64,000 nt of DNA from Blastococcus mobilis (lineage in GTDB: Bacteria > Actinomycetota > Actinomycetes > Mycobacteriales > Geodermatophilaceae): NCBI RefSeq assembly GCF_900188025.1, contig NZ_FZNO01000001.1, forward strand, positions 62,001 through 126,000. The letters run 5' to 3'. Shown one piece after another: positions 40,247-62,432 of this stretch (within the stretch, counting starts at the first letter, position 1; every line of letters starts with the position of its first letter). The notes beneath the pieces were generated by a model. That model was not told the DNA's origin and did not search any database. It was given only the letters and a program-made list of their open reading frames with translations. A program made the translations under genes and the position numbers.

Positions 40247-40993
40247 ATGAGCAGGACCACATCCGGTAGTCGGCTGCACCTCCCGCGCTACCTGCGGGAG
40301 GAGGACAAGTTCCGTACGCCCGTCGGCTACGCGGACTACCGGAGCACCGGCCTGCGGGCGCCGCTGCACGCCCCCGTCGACCTCCCGCACCGGCTGACCG
40401 AGATCACCGGTCCGCTCCTCGGTGAGGGACGGGTGACCCCGGCCGACGCCGACCTGACGCGCCAGCACGACGGCGAACCGCAGGGGCAGCGGATCATCGT
40501 TCACGGCCGAGTGCTCGACAGCGACGGCAAGCCCGTGCCACACACGCTGGTGGAGATCTGGCAGGCCAACGCCGGCGGCCGCTACCGGCACGTCGTCGAC
40601 AACTGGCCCTCGCCGCTGGACCCGAACTTCACCGGCCTCGGGCGATGCCTCACCGACGACCGGGGCCGCTACGAGTTCACGACGATCAAGCCCGGCGCCT
40701 ATCCGTGGGGCAACCACCACAACGCCTGGCGGCCGGCGCACATCCACTTCTCGCTGTTCGGCACCGCGTTCACGCAGCGACTGGTCACCCAGATGTACTT
40801 CCCGGACGATCCGTTGTTCTTCCAGGATCCGATCTTCAACGCGATCCCTGAGGCCGCGCGGCCGCTCGCCATCAGCCGGTTCGACTACGAGCGCACCGTG
40901 GACAACTGGGCCCTGGCGTTCCGGTGGGACATCGTGCTGCGCGGCAAGGACCAGACGCCGTTCGAGACCGAGGACGACGGAGACGTGGCGTGA
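40247..40993 (+). CDS. pcaH: Protocatechuate 3,4-dioxygenase beta subunit
   Basis: This 248-residue protein has the intradiol dioxygenase signature (about residues 85-113, LVEIWQANAGGRYRH) with one Tyr iron ligand. The other ligands are in PGAYPWGNHHNAWRPAHIHF (Tyr, then His-x-His). With PcaG it forms the non-haem Fe(III) enzyme that opens protocatechuate between the hydroxyls to 3-carboxy-cis,cis-muconate. It is the first gene of pcaHGBDC. A 154-base spacer separates it from pcaG, unusual for this operon. Confidence 0.95.
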   Translation: MSRTTSGSRLHLPRYLREEDKFRTPVGYADYRSTGLRAPLHAPVDLPHRLTEITGPLLGEGRVTPADADLTRQHDGEPQGQRIIVHGRVLDSDGKPVPHTLVEIWQANAGGRYRHVVDNWPSPLDPNFTGLGRCLTDDRGRYEFTTIKPGAYPWGNHHNAWRPAHIHFSLFGTAFTQRLVTQMYFPDDPLFFQDPIFNAIPEAARPLAISRFDYERTVDNWALAFRWDIVLRGKDQTPFETEDDGDVA

Positions 40994-41147
40994 TGACAGC
41001 CGAGGGAGCATCGCAGCGAGGCAGGAGCCGACAGGGAGTGAGCATCGCAGCGAGCGCCAGCGAGCGAGGAGCGGAGCGACCGCGGAGGCGACCGCTGACG
41101 CGGAGCGAGGAGCGGATCGAGGCCGGAATCGCGCCGGGAGGTGTGGC
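40994..41147 (+). repeat. Repeat-rich spacer between pcaH and pcaG, flanked by a 9-bp direct repeat
   Basis: GTGGCGTGA ends pcaH (40985-40993) and recurs at 41143-41151 over the pcaG start. Inside, GAGCATCGCAGCGAG occurs at 41006-41020 and 41040-41054, and GAGCGAGGAGCGGA at 41062-41075 and 41103-41116. The top strand is strongly purine-rich. No gene is recognised; a 75-residue frame across it has no support. Confidence 0.7.
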
Positions 41148-41717
41148 GTGAAGACGCAGTTGCGCACGACACCCAGCGCGACGGTCGGCCCCTACCTCGC
41201 CATCGGGCTGACGTGGGAGGACGGTCCCTTCGTCGTCGCCCCGGACGCCGACGGTGCCATCTGGATCCGCGGCACCGTGTTCGACGGCAACGGCGACGTG
41301 GTCCCCGACGCCATGGTGGAGACGTGGCAGGCCGATCCCGACGGTCGCTTCGACCATCCCGACGACCCGCGCGGCCCGGTCGCCTACCCGGGGTTCCGCG
41401 GCTTCGGCCGGTCGCAGACCGTGGACGGTGGCGAGTACGCCGTCTGCACGCTCAAGCCCGGCCGCGTCCCGGACGGCGACGGCGGGCTGCAGGCTCCGCA
41501 CCTCGACGTCTCGGTCTTCATGCGCGGGATCCTCGATCGCGTCGTCACCCGGATCTACTTCGCCGACGAGGCCGCGGCCAACGCAGAGGACGCCGTCCTG
41601 AGGTCGCTGCCCGACGACGCGGCTCGGGAGACGCTGATCGCCACCCCCACCGATGACGGGTACCGGCTGGACATCCGCCTCCAGGGCGACCGCGAGACCG
41701 TGTTCTTCGCGGTATGA
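41148..41717 (+). CDS. pcaG: Protocatechuate 3,4-dioxygenase alpha subunit
   Basis: This 189-residue protein has the intradiol dioxygenase core (GTVFDGNGDVVPDAMVETWQADPDGRF). Unlike the beta subunit it lacks the full iron ligand set, having HLDVSVFMRG where PcaH has His-x-His, as expected for the structural alpha subunit. It starts with GTG; GGGAGG lies nine bases upstream inside the spacer. The spacer breaks what would otherwise be a GTGA overlap with pcaH. Confidence 0.94.
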   Translation: MKTQLRTTPSATVGPYLAIGLTWEDGPFVVAPDADGAIWIRGTVFDGNGDVVPDAMVETWQADPDGRFDHPDDPRGPVAYPGFRGFGRSQTVDGGEYAVCTLKPGRVPDGDGGLQAPHLDVSVFMRGILDRVVTRIYFADEAAANAEDAVLRSLPDDAARETLIATPTDDGYRLDIRLQGDRETVFFAV

Positions 41718-41772
41718 CCCGGCTCCCTGACCGCTGCTCCGGTAAGAACGGCCCCATGACCGGGACCTGCGC

Positions 41773-43098
41773 GTGAGCGGACTCTTCGGCGGCACCTTCG
41801 CCCGCGGCGGAGCCACCGCCGCAGTCTCCGACGCCGCGTGGTTCCGGGCCCTGCTCGAGGTGGAGGCCGCACTGGCCCGCTCGGCCGCCCGCCTCGGGCT
41901 GGTGTCGGAGACCGCGGCCGCCACGGTGACGACCGTCTGTGCCGACCCGGCCCGGCTCGATCTCGCGACCGTCGTGGCGAGGGCTGCGGATGCCGGCAAC
42001 CCGGTGCCGCCGCTGGTGCGGGCGCTGCAGGAGGCCGTCGGCGAGGACGCCGCCCGTGCCGTCCACGTCGGTGCCACCAGCCAGGACATCCTGGACACCG
42101 CCCTGCTGCTGCTGGCCCGGAACGCGATCGCGGCCATCGACGCCGACCTCGCCGGCGCCGCCGGAGCAGCGGCCCGGCTCGCCGGAGTCCACCGGGACGA
42201 CGTCGTCATGGGCCGCACGCTCATGCAGCAGGCGCTGCCGACGACCTTCGGCCTGAAGGCAGCCGGCTGGCTGGCCGGCCTGGACGGAGCGCGCCTCCGG
42301 CTGGCCGAGGTGGTCGCGTCGCTGCCGGTCCAGTACGGCGGAGCGGCGGGGACCCTGGTCGCCAGCTCCGGGTCGGGCGTGGCCCTGCGCTCCGCCCTGG
42401 CCACCGAGCTCGGTCTGGCCGACACCGCGGCTCCCTGGCACACGATGCGGCTGCCGATCGCCGACCTCGCCGGCGCACTGGGCGCGACCGCCGGCGTGCT
42501 CGGGACCATCGCCGTCGACGTGGTCCTCATGGCACAGACCGAGGTCGCCGAGGTCAGCGAGAGCGGGGAGTCCCGCGGCGGCTCCTCCGCGATGCCGCAC
42601 AAGCGCAATCCGGTCGCGGCGATCTCGGCCCGCGCCTGCGCGCGGCGTGCGCCCGGCCTGGTCGCCACGCTGTTCGCGGCGATGGAGCAGGAGCACGAGC
42701 GGGCGGCGGGGGCCTGGCACAGCGAATGGCCCACCCTGACCGATCTGCTCAGCACCGTGGGCTCCGCCGCGTCGTGGCTGGCGGAGAGCCTGGCCGGCCT
42801 CCGGCCCGACGTCGACCGGATGGCCGCCACCGTCGCCTCGGCGCGGGACCCGGAGCTGGCTGGAGCCCTCGCCGAGGCCCTGACGCCGACGCTGGGCCGG
42901 GGAGCGGCGCACGACGCGGCGGCCGACGCATCCCGCGAGGCGGTGGCGAGTGGCCGGCCGCTGCGCGAGGTGCTCGCCGAGCGCACCGACGTCGACGTGC
43001 ACACGCTGCTGGCGGCGGGCCCGGACGTGGGCGAGGCCGGAGCTCAGGTGGACGCAGTCCTGGCCGACCACCGCCGACTGACCGAGGGGACACAGTGA
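41773..43098 (+). CDS. pcaB: 3-carboxy-cis,cis-muconate cycloisomerase
   Basis: This 441-residue fumarase/aspartase superfamily protein has the signature GGSSAMPHKRNP (about residues 270-281) and the HVGATSQDILDTA substrate segment (about 97-109). It converts 3-carboxymuconate to 4-carboxymuconolactone. It is third in the pca operon, 55 bases after pcaG, starting at GTG 41773. The length fits the bacterial type II enzyme. The downstream gap to pcaD again shows short direct repeats (CAGTGA at 43093-43098 and 43164-43169). Confidence 0.94.
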   Translation: MSGLFGGTFARGGATAAVSDAAWFRALLEVEAALARSAARLGLVSETAAATVTTVCADPARLDLATVVARAADAGNPVPPLVRALQEAVGEDAARAVHVGATSQDILDTALLLLARNAIAAIDADLAGAAGAAARLAGVHRDDVVMGRTLMQQALPTTFGLKAAGWLAGLDGARLRLAEVVASLPVQYGGAAGTLVASSGSGVALRSALATELGLADTAAPWHTMRLPIADLAGALGATAGVLGTIAVDVVLMAQTEVAEVSESGESRGGSSAMPHKRNPVAAISARACARRAPGLVATLFAAMEQEHERAAGAWHSEWPTLTDLLSTVGSAASWLAESLAGLRPDVDRMAATVASARDPELAGALAEALTPTLGRGAAHDAAADASREAVASGRPLREVLAERTDVDVHTLLAAGPDVGEAGAQVDAVLADHRRLTEGTQ

Positions 43099-57108: not shown

Positions 57109-58968
57109 CTACTCCGGTGGCGTGCGGAGGCGGCGGTGGGCGGCCATCCGGACCGGGGCGTTGACCGTGCCGTACCCGTCGTAGCCCCCGACGCGCTGCA
57201 CCACCTCGAAGAAGACACGGGAGCCGAGCACCTCGGTGACCAGGTGCAGGTAGCGACCGTGCTCGTCCTCGTCGTAGAACAGCCCACACTCCCGTATGTC
57301 CGCGAGCAGGCCCGGATCGAGGTCGAGGCGGGCGTCGAGGTCGTCGTGGTAGTTGGCCGGCACCGGCAGCAGCGGCGCGTTCGCTGCGCGCAGGGCACGG
57401 GCGGTGGCGACGATGTCGTCGGTGGCGAGGGCGACCGACTGCGGGGCCGGGACGCCAGGGGCCCACTCGCCCCGGCGCAGCAACGAGACGGTGAGCGCCA
57501 GCCGCACGGCGTGGTCGGGACCGGTCACGGCCCGGCTGCGCACGAGGCCGAACGGCGCCGCGACCTCGGTGACCGCCTCGGGCTCCAGTCCGAGCACCGA
57601 CCGGTAGAACAGCCCGGCCTCGTCGAAGGAGTCGAACGGCTGGGTCAGCGCCACGTGGTCGACGGCGGTGACGCCCGCGCCCGCGCCGGCCACCGAGCCG
57701 GTCGGCAGGAAGTCGGCCGGCCACCCGCCCGGGCCGGTGCGGGCGAAGAAGACCTGGGTCCCGTCGGGAGCAGCGACCGCGGACAGGTCGGCCTCCGTGG
57801 CGCCGCGTGTGCGGGGAAGGACGGGGGCGAGCAGGGCCTCGGCCCGCTCCGCCGAACGGCCCGGGTCCTCGCTCTCCAGGGCAAGGGCCGCCACTTCGGC
57901 GACCCCGGCTGCGGCCGGCCGCACGACCGAGGCGTTGAGCAGCACGCGCGCCCGTCCCTGCTCCCACAGTTGGACCGGCTTGGACCGGTGCTGTCCGGTG
58001 TGGGTGAAGCCCAGTGCCGCCAGCGCGCCGGCGACCTCCGGTCCCGACACGCCGTCCACGGCGAGTTCGGTGAACGCGTACCCGGTGAGGGCCGGCGCCG
58101 GAGGGGGTGTGGTCAGGCCGAGTTCGGAACGCCGCACTGCGAGGCCTTCCTCCAGCCAGAGCAGTGAGCGCATGGCGTCGACCGCGGCCCGCGCCGGGTC
58201 GGACTGGCGGAAGACGTCGTTGAAGACCTCCAGGGACAGCGGCCCCGTGTAGCCGGCGGCCAGCACGTGCCCGAGGAAGGCAGGCAGGTCGAAGGCCCCC
58301 TGACCGGGGAAGAGCCGGTGGTGGCGGCTCCACTGGAGCACGTCCATGTCCATGTGCGGGGCGTCGGCCAGTTGGAGGAAGAACAGCTTCTCGCCGGGTA
58401 CCTCGGCGAAGCCGGCGGGGTCACCACCGCGGGAGAGCACGTGGAAGCTGTCCAGGCACAGACCGAGGGCAGGGGAGGCGGCCCGGCGGACGGCGTCCCA
58501 CGAGCGGTCCCAGGTGGAGACGTGCCGCCCCCACGCCAGCGCCTCGTAGGCGATCCGGAGCCCCCGCTCGTCGGCCAGTTCGGCCGCCGCGGCGAGCTGT
58601 TCGGCGAGCCGGTCGGGGTCGGCGACGGCGTCCGGCGCGACCGACGAGCACACCAGGACCGTGTCGGTGCCGAGCTCCGCCATCACGTCGAACTTGTGCC
58701 CGGCCCGCCGCAGGTTGCGGGCGAAACGCTCCGGATCGGTGGAGTCCAGATCCCGGAACGGCTGGTAGAGGTCGACCGACAGGCCCAGTCCGGCGCAGCG
58801 GGCGGCCAGTTCCTTCGGCGCCCACGGGGAGGCGATCAGGTCCGGCTCGAAGATCTCGATGCCGTCGAATCCCGCGGCCGCGGCCGCGACCAGCTTGTCC
58901 TCCAGCGTGCCCGACAGGCAGACCGTCGCGATCGTCCGGCGCACCGGCCGGTCAAGCGACACGGACAC
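57109..58968 (-). CDS. qsuB: 3-dehydroshikimate dehydratase, QsuB-type (TIM barrel fused to HPPD-like domain)
   Basis: This roughly 619-residue protein has two parts. An N-terminal xylose-isomerase-like TIM barrel (about 10-290; TIATVCLSGTLEDKLVAAAAAGFDGIEIFEPD) has metal ligands in YEALAWGRH, CLDSFHV, FLQLADAP and LSLEVFND. A C-terminal 4-hydroxyphenylpyruvate-dioxygenase-like part (about 315-615) ends HLVTEVLGSRVFFEVVQRVGGYDGYG. This is the QsuB layout, which dehydrates 3-dehydroshikimate to protocatechuate. The start is uncertain (GTG 58968, 58962 or 58944); all overlap or abut the shikimate dehydrogenase stop, so translation is coupled. It links this locus to pcaHGBDC. Confidence 0.9.
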   Translation of the reverse strand: MSVSLDRPVRRTIATVCLSGTLEDKLVAAAAAGFDGIEIFEPDLIASPWAPKELAARCAGLGLSVDLYQPFRDLDSTDPERFARNLRRAGHKFDVMAELGTDTVLVCSSVAPDAVADPDRLAEQLAAAAELADERGLRIAYEALAWGRHVSTWDRSWDAVRRAASPALGLCLDSFHVLSRGGDPAGFAEVPGEKLFFLQLADAPHMDMDVLQWSRHHRLFPGQGAFDLPAFLGHVLAAGYTGPLSLEVFNDVFRQSDPARAAVDAMRSLLWLEEGLAVRRSELGLTTPPPAPALTGYAFTELAVDGVSGPEVAGALAALGFTHTGQHRSKPVQLWEQGRARVLLNASVVRPAAAGVAEVAALALESEDPGRSAERAEALLAPVLPRTRGATEADLSAVAAPDGTQVFFARTGPGGWPADFLPTGSVAGAGAGVTAVDHVALTQPFDSFDEAGLFYRSVLGLEPEAVTEVAAPFGLVRSRAVTGPDHAVRLALTVSLLRRGEWAPGVPAPQSVALATDDIVATARALRAANAPLLPVPANYHDDLDARLDLDPGLLADIRECGLFYDEDEHGRYLHLVTEVLGSRVFFEVVQRVGGYDGYGTVNAPVRMAAHRRLRTPPE

Positions 58969-59842
58969 CGGTGCTCGGTTCCGTGACCAGGGCGGTGAAG
59001 TGGGCCAGCATGCGGTCGGCGTCGGGCTCCACGCCGGTGAACAGCTTGAAGGCGTCGACGGCCTGGAAGACGGCCATGCCGCCGCCGTCGAGCACCCGGC
59101 AGCCGAGATCTCGGGCGGTGCGGACGAGGGCGGTCTCCAGTGGGCGGTAGACGATGTCGGCCACCCAGAGGTCGGGGCGCAGGAGGTCGGCCGGCAGGGG
59201 GAGGCCGGGATGGGCGGCCATGCCGGTCGGGGTGGCGTGGACCAGGCCGTCGACGGTGGCCAGCGCGTCGGCGAGGTCGTCGGCCGCACCGCCGAGCGCC
59301 CGACCCGGACCGAAGCGGTCGGACAGGGCCGTGGCGAGTCCGCGGGCCCGCCACTGGTCGACGTCGAGGATCGTGAGCCGGGCGGTGCCGAGGGTGAGCA
59401 GGGCATGCGCCACGGCGGCTCCCGCCCCACCGGCCCCGAGGAGGACGACCGAGGTCAGGGGGGCATCGGGCAGTCCGCGGTCGAAGGACCGGGCGAAGCC
59501 GGACCAGTCGGTGTTGTGGCCGACCATGCGTCCGTCGCTCAGGACGACGGTGTTGACCGCACCGAGAGCGGCGGCATCGGGGGAGAGCTCGTCGAGGTGG
59601 TCGAGGACGAGCTGCTTGCACGGGTGGGTGATGTTGAGCCCGTCGTAGCCGGCCAGCTGAGCGGCGCCGAGGATCTCGCCGACGGCGGTCGCCGGCCGGC
59701 CGAGGACGTCGAGGTCCAGGCGCCGGTACAGGTACCGGATCCCGAGCTCGTCGGCCTCGCGCTCGTGCAGGGCGGGGGTCAGCGACGGGCCGATGCCGTT
59801 GCCGACCAGGCCGATGAGGTAACTGTGGGAGCTGCCGCTCAC
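58952..59842 (-). CDS. aroE: Quinate/shikimate dehydrogenase (AroE/QsuD family)
   Basis: This 296-residue protein has substrate-binding GIGPSLTPALHEREADELGI, catalytic Lys in NITHPCKQ and Asp in HNTDWSGF, and nucleotide motif LLGAGGAGAAVAHAL followed by LDVD. GIGPSLTP and the acidic end of the nucleotide fold (NAD preference) are typical of catabolic quinate/shikimate dehydrogenases rather than biosynthetic AroE. GTG 59842 follows GGAGG. It is first in the operon with qsuB, divergent from a TetR gene, with ACCAGTTGGT 19-28 bases upstream. Confidence 0.9.
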   Translation of the reverse strand: MSGSSHSYLIGLVGNGIGPSLTPALHEREADELGIRYLYRRLDLDVLGRPATAVGEILGAAQLAGYDGLNITHPCKQLVLDHLDELSPDAAALGAVNTVVLSDGRMVGHNTDWSGFARSFDRGLPDAPLTSVVLLGAGGAGAAVAHALLTLGTARLTILDVDQWRARGLATALSDRFGPGRALGGAADDLADALATVDGLVHATPTGMAAHPGLPLPADLLRPDLWVADIVYRPLETALVRTARDLGCRVLDGGGMAVFQAVDAFKLFTGVEPDADRMLAHFTALVTEPSTGVRVA

Positions 59843-59860
59843 GGGGGCCTCCGGTCATGT

Positions 59861-59870
59861 ACCAGTTGGT
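59861..59870. promoter_or_regulatory. Candidate TetR operator ACCAGTTGGT, site 1
   Basis: ACCAGTTGGT lies just upstream of the dehydrogenase start codon in the region shared with the divergent TetR gene. The identical 10-mer recurs upstream of the transporter gene at 60908-60917. Confidence 0.55.
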
Positions 59871-60010
59871 GAGTTAGTTCTGAGGGGACCACATTCCGCG
59901 GCTGTCCGCCAGGCCTCGGGGGGATCTGCGTCGCATCCGTTCGTGGGCGAGGCGTCGGTCCTCGAGGGCGCGCCCTAGGCTCGGCCTGTCCGTCGACCTG
60001 GAGGAGATTC

Positions 60011-60703
60011 GTGGCCGCGCAGCCGTCCGAGCCCGGTGCGCCCGTGCGCGGTGACGTGCCGGACGTGGGGGTGGCCGGTGTCGAGCGGATCAGGGACGCC
60101 GAGCGGACCCGCGCCGACATCCTCGCCGTAGCCACCCGGGAGTTCGCCGATCGCGGCTATGCCGGCGCCCGGATCAACGAGATCGCCGACAAGACCAGCA
60201 CCACCAAGCGGATGATCTACTACTACTTCGGCGGCAAGGAGCAGCTCTACGTCGCCGTCCTGGAAGAGGCCTACCGCCGGATCCGGGTTCTCGAGCAGCA
60301 GATCGACGTCGAGCATCTCGACCCGGTGCACGCGATCCGCGAACTCGCCGGCGTGACCTTCGACCACCACGAGTCCCATCCGGACTTCATCCGCCTGGTG
60401 AGCATCGAGAACATCCACCGGGCCGAGCACATCGCGCGCTCGACGGTCCTCTCCAACCTGGCCAATCCAGCGGTCGACGTGCTGGGGGCGATCCTCCGGC
60501 GCGGCTGGGATGCCGGAGTGTTCCGGGACGACGTCGACGCGCTCGACGTCCACCAGGTGATCAGTGCGTTCTGCGTCTTCCGGACGGCCAACCGTCATAC
60601 CTTCGGCGCCATCTTCGGACGCGACATGCTCGACCATGCCCGCCGGGAGCACCAGCGCCGGATGCTGGGCGACCTCGTCGTCGCCTACCTGACGACCCAC
60701 TGA
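60011..60703 (+). CDS. TetR family regulator of the quinate/shikimate locus
   Basis: This 230-residue protein has the HTH at about residues 30-75 (RADILAVATREFADRGYAGARINEIADKTSTTKRMIYYYFGGKEQLY), a clean TetR N-terminus, and a C-terminal TetR_C-type ligand domain with HHESHPDFIRLVSIENIHRAEHI. GTG 60011 follows GGAG at good spacing. It stands between the divergent aroE-qsuB operon and the downstream transporter. Both flanks carry ACCANNTGGT palindromes, so it probably represses both until shikimate, quinate or dehydroshikimate is present. Confidence 0.92.
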   Translation: MAAQPSEPGAPVRGDVPDVGVAGVERIRDAERTRADILAVATREFADRGYAGARINEIADKTSTTKRMIYYYFGGKEQLYVAVLEEAYRRIRVLEQQIDVEHLDPVHAIRELAGVTFDHHESHPDFIRLVSIENIHRAEHIARSTVLSNLANPAVDVLGAILRRGWDAGVFRDDVDALDVHQVISAFCVFRTANRHTFGAIFGRDMLDHARREHQRRMLGDLVVAYLTTH

Positions 60704-61082
60704 CCTCGCGCCGTCGCGAGCGGTACCCCGTTCCCGGCCCGACGAGCCGCGGCTCCGGCGGTGCCGTCGCGCGGACGGGGGCCGGGGGGTCGGGGCGTGG
60801 CGTCGCCGCTCGGACGCCTCGCCACTTCTCCCTCTCGCCCCGGGCCGCCACACCCCCGACATCGCCACTTGACAGGTGACCGTCATCACCTCACCATTTG
60901 GTACGTAACCAGTTGGTACATAAGCAGCTGGGGTCCCATCGCCCGACGAGGGCGGGGAGCGGACGGCCGGTGACCCCGGGCGCCGCGCAGCACGGAAACG
61001 CCGCACGCTGACCGCACCGGGCCCCGCCCGGCCCTACCCGGCACGACTCGGTCGCTGCCGCCGGTACTCCCAGGAGAACCCC
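60704..61082. other. 379-base intergenic region: TetR 3' end and transporter promoter
   Basis: CTCGCG-CCGT-CGCGAG at 60705-60720 may end the TetR transcript. The right part has TTGACA (60869-60874), an AGGTGA-N6-TCACCT palindrome (60874-60891), ACCATTTGGT (60893-60902) and ACCAGTTGGT (60908-60917). A very long untranslated stretch (about 165 bases) follows to the transporter ATG, with no gene seen. Confidence 0.5.
60874..60917. promoter_or_regulatory. Operator cluster upstream of the transporter
   Basis: The cluster holds a perfect AGGTGA-N6-TCACCT inverted repeat (60874-60891), then ACCATTTGGT at 60893-60902 and ACCAGTTGGT at 60908-60917, whose centres are 15 bases apart. The first ACCANNTGGT falls where the -10 element of a TTGACA promoter at 60869 would be, consistent with repression. 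Confidence 0.55.
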
Positions 61083-62432
61083 ATGACCTCCACCACCGCC
61101 GCCGGTGGACCCCCGACCGATCGCGTGCCCCGCAAGGCCGCGCTCGCGAGCTTCGTCGGCAGCATGCTCGAGTACTACGACTTCTTCATCTACGGCTCTG
61201 CGGCCGGACTGGTCTTCCCGACCGTCTTCTTTGCCGACAGCGATCCCGCCACGGCAACCCTGCTGTCGCTGGCCACCTTCGGCGTCGCCTACGTGGCCCG
61301 GCCGCTCGGCGCGGTCATCATCGGCCACTTCGGCGACAAGCTCGGCCGCAAGAAGATGCTGGTGCTGACGCTGCTGCTGATGGGCGTCTCGACGTTCCTG
61401 ATCGGCCTGCTGCCGTCCTACGCCGCCATCGGGGTCGCCGCGCCGATCCTGCTGGTCGTGCTCCGCGTCCTGCAGGGGCTGTCGGCCGCCGGCGAGCAGA
61501 GCGGTGCGAACTCGTTGACCCTGGAGCACGCGCCCGAGGGGCGGCGGGGCTTCTTCACCAGCTTCACCCTCAGCGGCACCCAGGCCGGCCTGATCCTGGC
61601 CACCCTCGTGTTCATCCCGGTCGCGGCACTCCCGGACGAGCAGCTGTTCAGCTGGGGCTGGCGGATCCCGTTCTTCCTCTCCGCCGTCGTGGTGGCCGTC
61701 GGCTACTGGGTGCGGCGCACGCTGCCCGAGACGCCGGAGTTCGAGAAGGTCGAGCAGAACCACGCCGTCGCCAAGCTGCCCGTGGCCGTCCTGTTCCGGG
61801 ACCACTGGCCCAGCGTGCTGCGCGTCATCCTGTGCGCGCTGGTCTCGGTGGTGAGCACGGTCGTCGCCACGTGGGCGCTCGCCTGGGCGACCGGTGACCT
61901 CGGCCTGGAGCGGGCGACCTTCCTGTGGGTCATCGTCGCGGCCAACGTCGTCGCGCTCGGCGCGATCCCGATGTGGGCCCGGCTGTCGGACCGGATCGGT
62001 CGCCGGCCGGTGTTCGCCTTCGGTGCGCTCGGGTCGGCCGTCCTAATCTTCCCGTTCCTGTGGGCCGTGGCGCAGGGGAACTTCACGCTGATCTTCGTCT
62101 TCGGGCTGCTGCTCTCCGGGGTCGTCTACTCCGCGGCGAACGGCGTCTGGCCGACGCTCTACGGCGAGATGTTCGACACCCGGGTCCGGTACTCGGGCAT
62201 GGCGATCGGCACGCAGATCGGGTTCGCCCTGGGCGGTTTCTCGCCGACCATCGCCGCGGCGATCGTCGGTGACGGTCCGAACGGCTGGCTGCCGGTCGCC
62301 TTCCTGACCGCCGGTGCCGCCACGGTGGCGGGCCTGTGCGCCCTGACCGCCCGCGAGACCGCGCACGTCCCGCTCGCCCGGCTCGGCACGCCGGCCGCGC
62401 GTGTCCCCGAGCGGGAGACGCTGGCCGCTTGA
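61083..62432 (+). CDS. MFS transporter, MHS family (probable shikimate/quinate uptake)
   Basis: This 449-residue protein has 12 predicted helices. The metabolite:H+ symporter signature is clear: ASFVGSMLEYYDFFIYGSAA (about residues 22-41), GHFGDKLGRKKML between helices 2 and 3, and RVLQGLSAAGEQSGA. MHS members include ShiA, ProP and KgtP. Location beside the dehydrogenase, dehydratase and TetR genes, with shared operators, points to shikimate, quinate or dehydroshikimate import. The ATG follows AGGAGAA at good spacing. Confidence 0.9.
   Translation: MTSTTAAGGPPTDRVPRKAALASFVGSMLEYYDFFIYGSAAGLVFPTVFFADSDPATATLLSLATFGVAYVARPLGAVIIGHFGDKLGRKKMLVLTLLLMGVSTFLIGLLPSYAAIGVAAPILLVVLRVLQGLSAAGEQSGANSLTLEHAPEGRRGFFTSFTLSGTQAGLILATLVFIPVAALPDEQLFSWGWRIPFFLSAVVVAVGYWVRRTLPETPEFEKVEQNHAVAKLPVAVLFRDHWPSVLRVILCALVSVVSTVVATWALAWATGDLGLERATFLWVIVAANVVALGAIPMWARLSDRIGRRPVFAFGALGSAVLIFPFLWAVAQGNFTLIFVFGLLLSGVVYSAANGVWPTLYGEMFDTRVRYSGMAIGTQIGFALGGFSPTIAAAIVGDGPNGWLPVAFLTAGAATVAGLCALTARETAHVPLARLGTPAARVPERETLAA

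Follow-up and report, generated by a model that had tools for sequence, protein, structure and literature searches.

Gene content and predicted operator sites

The window (the whole stretch of DNA analysed, 64,000 nucleotides from Blastococcus mobilis) holds adjoining genes for a dehydrogenase, a dehydroshikimate dehydratase and an uptake protein, as would be seen in a local shikimate/quinate regulon. The same clusters are found in orthologous loci. The genes and features, in coordinates of the window, are:

57109-58965, minus strand: quiC, 3-dehydroshikimate dehydratase with TIM-barrel and HPPD-like domains (Pfam AP_endonuc_2, 2.1e-42)
58952-59842, minus strand: aroE-type shikimate/quinate dehydrogenase (NCBIfam PRK12549, 444 bits, cut-off 235)
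59855-59876, plus strand: predicted operator U (TCATGTACCAGTTGGTGAGTTA), core at 59861-59870, conserved before aroE/quiC in orthologous loci
60011-60703, plus strand: tetR, 230 amino acids, with TetR_N and TetR_C_29 (Pfam)
60869-60874, plus strand: -35 hexamer TTGACA of the transporter promoter, from ortholog comparison
60874-60891, plus strand: palindrome AGGTGA-N6-TCACCT with a GTGA-N6-TCAC core, CRP-like in form, in the -35/-10 spacer
60887-60908, plus strand: predicted operator A (CACCTCACCATTTGGTACGTAA), core at 60893-60902 (core match, matrix hit, 16-base form)
60892-60897, plus strand: -10 hexamer CACCAT after a 17-bp spacer from TTGACA, in overlap with operator A
60902-60923, plus strand: predicted operator B (TACGTAACCAGTTGGTACATAA), core at 60908-60917, 15 bp after A (core match, matrix hit, 16-base form)
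61083-62432, plus strand: MFS metabolite/H+ symporter, shikimate-transporter-like (NCBIfam PRK09952, TIGR00883)

As the first gene of the aroE-quiC unit, aroE starts with GTG at 59842 and overlaps quiC by 14 bases. The quiC product matches NCBIfam QuiC at 1.7e-171 with 572 bits, below the equivalog cut-off of 1200, and the transporter stays below the cut-offs of both the PRK09952 shikimate transporter (336.5 against 538 bits) and TIGR00883 (381 against 443 bits). In the regulator, an N-terminal helix-turn-helix (PF00440 TetR_N, 8e-14, 51.6 bits, cut-off 24) is combined with a C-terminal ligand domain matching the whole profile of PF17938 TetR_C_29 (6.8e-47, 158.9 bits, cut-off 26.2), and this is the only TetR_C_29 match in the host genome (5.09 Mb in 88 contigs). 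All Pfam domains of the regulator are of the TetR kind, so that it does not belong to the LysR type as QsuR or ShiR do. The closest solved sequence is 3npi_A, a TetR family regulatory protein in the PDB (E 4.7e-34, residues 35-229). By its domains the protein is a TetR-family member, and its genome setting implies that it very probably works like a local catabolic repressor.

The clustered enzymes lead from shikimate via 3-dehydroshikimate to protocatechuate. Homologues of pcaH, pcaG and pcaB, encoding protocatechuate 3,4-dioxygenase and PcaB of the protocatechuate pathway, are located at 40319-43098 of the window, ending about 14 kb before quiC; the core pattern ACCANNTGGT, described below, is absent from these genes. 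A second AroE, 31% identical to the clustered one, is encoded elsewhere in the genome, and the clustered AroE would thus be free for catabolism. It carries an aspartate after the nucleotide-binding strand (ILDVD), which suggests the use of NAD. Since a scan of the five proteins between 57109 and 63387 found no dehydroquinase, shikimate is a likelier substrate than quinate.

The initial annotation had pointed out an exact repeat, ACCAGTTGGT, before the dehydrogenase-dehydratase operon and before the transporter, and both copies are indeed present (59861-59870 and 60908-60917), as is the third copy, ACCATTTGGT, at 60893-60902, 15 bp from the second ACCAGTTGGT copy measured from start to start. 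Operator U is centred about 23 bp ahead of the start codon of aroE. In the window, the pattern ACCANNTGGT occurs three times, always within the two spaces flanking tetR, against a mean of 0.24 in shuffled sequence (none of 100 shuffles reached three). A genome scan for the 10-bp core, proposed as a check, divides the case: the core itself is not special, its 116 places being fewer than the 142 of the reversed control, and ACCAGTTGGT as a 10-mer is not unique in the genome, while the extended form is specific. We consequently rejected the core as evidence by itself. Exact matches to the 16-base form ACCANNTGGTRMRTWA in the 5.09 Mb are confined to these three places. Allowing one mismatch adds three further strand matches, one of which is the opposite strand of the first site, leaving two other places. 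The exact 16-base form therefore stands at each unit of the cluster and not elsewhere, apart from the two one-mismatch places, and it reveals no wider regulon across the genome. The shared operators of the proposed TetR regulon are strongly supported, and the regulon as found consists of the two promoters flanking tetR. The predicted operator is a palindrome of about 22 bp, of which ACCANNTGGT is one core, used mostly in the window's own family.

Conservation of the operator across tetR loci

Among 112 genomes of the family, 44 contain tetR, and the best 30 of these were given as loci, together with 80 loci kept from a species collection with 585 relatives. These make up 110 of 125 loci (L016-L125), the 15 left out having come from the core-pattern search; five loci with duplicate tetR were dropped, resulting in 105 tetR loci with the window's own as L016. 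In five of the family genomes tetR agrees with that of named Geodermatophilus and Blastococcus records, which suggests Geodermatophilaceae as the family. Exact ACCANNTGGT was found beside tetR at 47 sites in 26 of the 105 loci, compared to none for the reversed pattern in the same regions; in the remaining parts of the loci, 14 matches stand against 12 for the reversed pattern. From the 47 sites in 26 loci we built a 22-position matrix. At a threshold of 5 bits, which was chosen after the scores had been seen and applied to test loci related to those of the matrix, it placed sites next to tetR in 66 of the 79 loci outside the matrix set and in all 26 inside. No match fell into any of the 105 tetR coding stretches, and 20 column-permuted matrices matched between 0 and 8 of the 79 loci.

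Across the 105 loci, a site is present at most 260 bp before the gene start in 74/74 cases for the transporter, 71/74 for aroE and 22/24 for units headed by quiC (heads too near the locus end excluded), as opposed to 1/105 random control windows. The 79 loci outside the matrix set give 55/55, 53/56 and 15/16 for the three groups and still 54/55, 50/56 and 13/16 at a threshold of 10. The exceptions are aroE in L090, L107 and L125 and quiC in L056 and L108, for which no site was found within 260 bp upstream. Where tetR resides apart from aroE (L053, L082, L086, L129-L132), aroE still has its sites, and so does the transporter in L053 and L129-L132. Thirteen of the 105 loci lack a site beside tetR; eight of them feature sites at pathway genes, either in the same loci (L017, L053, L082, L086) or in longer stretches (L032, L033, L034, L042), and in L077, L084, L091, L116 and L124 no site was found either beside tetR or at pathway genes. 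The predicted sites, in short, belong to the pathway promoters rather than to tetR. In L131 (1183-3005), the quiC match of genome G047 is split between two reading frames, which may point to a frameshift.

The palindrome takes the form TAATGTACGAACTAGTACGTTA or near it in Streptomyces, and in Amycolatopsis TAACTCACCATCTGGTACGTAA among others. The recognition-helix stretch TTKRM[IL]YYYF is present in all 105 TetR proteins, and variation within residues 63-73 is limited to position 63 (S/R) and position 69 (I/L). A search for covariation between core and recognition helix was uninformative because the helix is almost constant. With a core that varies between clades and a recognition helix that barely does, the base contacts are left unexplained.

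Dependence of the sites on tetR

Of the 112 family genomes, 51 have quiC, among them every one of the 44 that carry tetR. The 16-base form ACCANNTGGTGAGTTR occurs in 34 of the 112 genomes, once in each, and all of these are tetR-positive. Of the ten tetR-positive genomes without exact ACCANNTGGTGAGTTR, six have variant sites (G029, G033, G041, G085, G100, G103) and one, G095, carries a site only towards the transporter; G075, G079 and G111 are the remaining three. Genomes were called tetR-negative at an E-value cut-off of 1e-30, with no tetR match in the fetched quiC stretches. None of the seven quiC-positive, tetR-negative genomes has a site at quiC, and none of the four among them with an aroE match in the stretch (L164-L167) has one at aroE; a single weak match (8.1) in these stretches is situated far from both genes. 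These genomes amount to a natural removal control, one that is not phylogenetically independent.

Two of the tetR-negative stretches have neighbours of another kind. In L167 (G007), a LacI-type regulator and part of a TRAP transporter flank quiC, and in L164 (G024) a TRAP transporter gene is found near quiC. Perhaps this arrangement represents another control scheme for the same enzyme.

The transporter promoter and its palindrome array

The initial annotation had placed the -10 element of a TTGACA promoter at the operator copy 60893-60902, and the comparison of loci bears this out. Of 69 loci with a downstream site, 67 show TTGAC[AT] no more than 60 bp ahead of the first such site, against none of 207 shifted control windows. 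In 63 of these 67, CANNNT follows at a spacing of 17 or 18 bp (TTGACA-N17/18-CANNNT), and no such match was obtained at ten other spacings. In 22 loci, the centres of operator and -10 element are separated by 3 bp, and in the other 41 the operator is centred 13-34 bp downstream of the -10 centre; since the operators overlap the -10 element or come after it, both positions are suited to repression. A sigma-70 consensus scan of 59700-61200 returned no promoter; it misses the transporter promoter because CACCAT agrees with TATAAT at only 3/6 positions. At aroE, a -35 element of the TTGAC[AT] type was found in 0/84 cases, so that the operator geometry there is unproven. Computation on the genomes shows the sites and the promoter itself, and also that the sites are conserved, stand at the promoters of the pathway and occur together with tetR.

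The separate AGGTGA-N6-TCACCT palindrome (AGGTGACCGTCATCACCT) that had been noted before the transporter lies at 60874-60891. Its centre (60882.5) and those of operators A (60897.5) and B (60912.5) follow each other in exact 15-bp steps, and a weaker AGCAGCTGGG at 60923-60932 extends the step after B. Among the loci, a distance of 15 bp recurs in 22 pairs of neighbouring sites; the other frequent spacing, 4 bp (24 pairs), probably reflects one site read twice through shifted matches. The GTGA-N6-TCAC core is kept in 15/15 family arrays and 0/6 outside the family, counted over the 21 arrays in which site A can still be recognised; family loci whose site A has decayed (e.g. L049, L052) do not enter this count. 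In L083 (Pseudonocardia sp. KRD291) and L117 (Actinomycetospora callitridis), the entire array is framed by arms like GACACG ... CGTGTC.

CRP/GlxR-type boxes have GTGA-N6-TCAC as their core. For this one palindrome, it is conceivable, at somewhat below even odds, that a CRP-family protein binds in the -35/-10 spacer and adds carbon-source control. Such a role would fit the retention of GTGA-N6-TCAC in all 15 family arrays while most of the intervening bases vary, the HTH_Crp_2 matches in the genome (six places above the cut-off) and the 14 forward and 13 reverse genome matches to GTGAC-N4-RTCAC, for which the reversed control, not matched for codon usage, gave 0. Absence of the core from all six arrays outside the family argues against it, as does the position between -35 and -10, which is unsuited to normal CRP activation. 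Compared to a TGTGA-N6-TCACA-like CRP box, the core is present and the outer bases differ. The exact 15-bp distance to operator A, equal to that between A and B, and the continuation of the step by AGCAGCTGGG would suit a weaker TetR site on the outside of the array. We consider this unlikely, because the half-sites are reversed (GGTGA...TCACC versus TCACCA..TGGTGA in the operator) and the palindrome is not among the matrix hits at threshold 5; the three best downstream matrix scores in L016 belong to operators B and A, followed by -10.8 for an overlap of B. A more elaborate and rather doubtful picture is that of a compact combined switch, in which palindromes repeated every 15 bp (60882.5, 60897.5, 60912.5 and perhaps 60927.5) would let TetR dimers sit on almost opposite sides of the helix and bind cooperatively over the -10 element and the start, with a CRP-type protein on the -35/-10 spacer, the spacer addition being restricted to the window's family.

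Proposed regulation and alternative explanations

Our preferred reading, to which we assign a probability of roughly 90%, is that the product of tetR (60011-60703) locally represses the catabolism of shikimate, and possibly of quinate: it binds the palindrome of about 22 bp with the core ACCANNTGGT, blocks both pathway promoters and is released by a metabolite. A TetR dimer would occupy one operator just upstream of the aroE start codon. Operators A and B, 15 bp apart, would cover the -10 element and the following region of TTGACA-N17-CACCAT and thereby block RNA polymerase, until one of the metabolites of the pathway (shikimate, dehydroshikimate, quinate or protocatechuate) releases TetR. What we infer is that TetR itself contacts the DNA, that it represses instead of activating, and that a pathway compound acts as inducer. 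The earlier suggestion that TetR is the binder of the shared operators is strongly supported by their conservation, by sites that move with the promoters and by the lack of sites where tetR is absent. All this indicates a well-supported TetR switch of the ordinary kind that would keep both gene groups off until needed.

A few TetR proteins act as activators. Most of those studied are repressors, as outlined in a literature source (PMC3511530). It is quite improbable that the same TetR is mainly an activator, and a position of the sites over or after the -10 element points in the same direction. We judge it no more probable that the sites are read by another regulator with tetR as a mere neighbour. 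The 116 genomic places of the 10-bp core do offer other proteins an opportunity to meet it, but across the 112 genomes the sites track tetR and not quiC alone, and the TetR_C_29 domain has no second match in the genome. The same core count, being no higher than that of the control, might suggest that the matches are nothing but the chance recurrence of a short intergenic palindrome; given the in-register conservation across actinobacteria, as well as 0/105 tetR coding stretches and 1/105 control windows with a site, the probability of this is close to nil.

A local repressor of this kind would combine a regulator, a specific operator of about 22 bp and a promoter into a unit for shikimate/quinate catabolism that is conserved from Geodermatophilaceae to Amycolatopsis, Pseudonocardia and Streptomyces. 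Its targets are predictable from sequence alone, and it is a possible part for a shikimate-pathway biosensor. That the operator core drifts while the recognition helix hardly changes poses a small, testable puzzle.

Comparison with known systems

A similar gene neighbourhood presumably exists in the PA0243 region of Pseudomonas aeruginosa, where a TetR gene would lie beside quiC, an aroE-like gene and transporter genes. MbdR of Azoarcus, which we take to be a TetR-family protein, offers another parallel. It is summarized as a regulator of aromatic degradation that is induced by a pathway intermediate (PMC4424350); the pathway differs from that of the shikimate cluster. We found no description of a TetR-type repressor of shikimate/quinate breakdown in the titles and abstract beginnings of the open-licence papers that full-text searches listed. 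The nearest case among them, going by its outline in the literature, comes from Burkholderia, where a TetR-like protein regulates the biosynthesis of aromatic amino acids (PMC11358695).

In Corynebacterium glutamicum, the genes for quinate/shikimate utilisation are, according to the outline in PMC11258901, controlled by the LysR-type QsuR, a chorismate-dependent activator, and the same outline mentions a shikimate sensor built on ShiR, a LysR-type, shikimate-responsive regulator of this organism. The likeness to the system described here is that of a quinate/shikimate utilisation regulator or a shikimate-responsive regulator in an actinobacterium. As far as these outlines go, the regulators of Corynebacterium are of the LysR type, in contrast to that of the window, which is of the TetR type and has a palindromic predicted operator over the -10 element.
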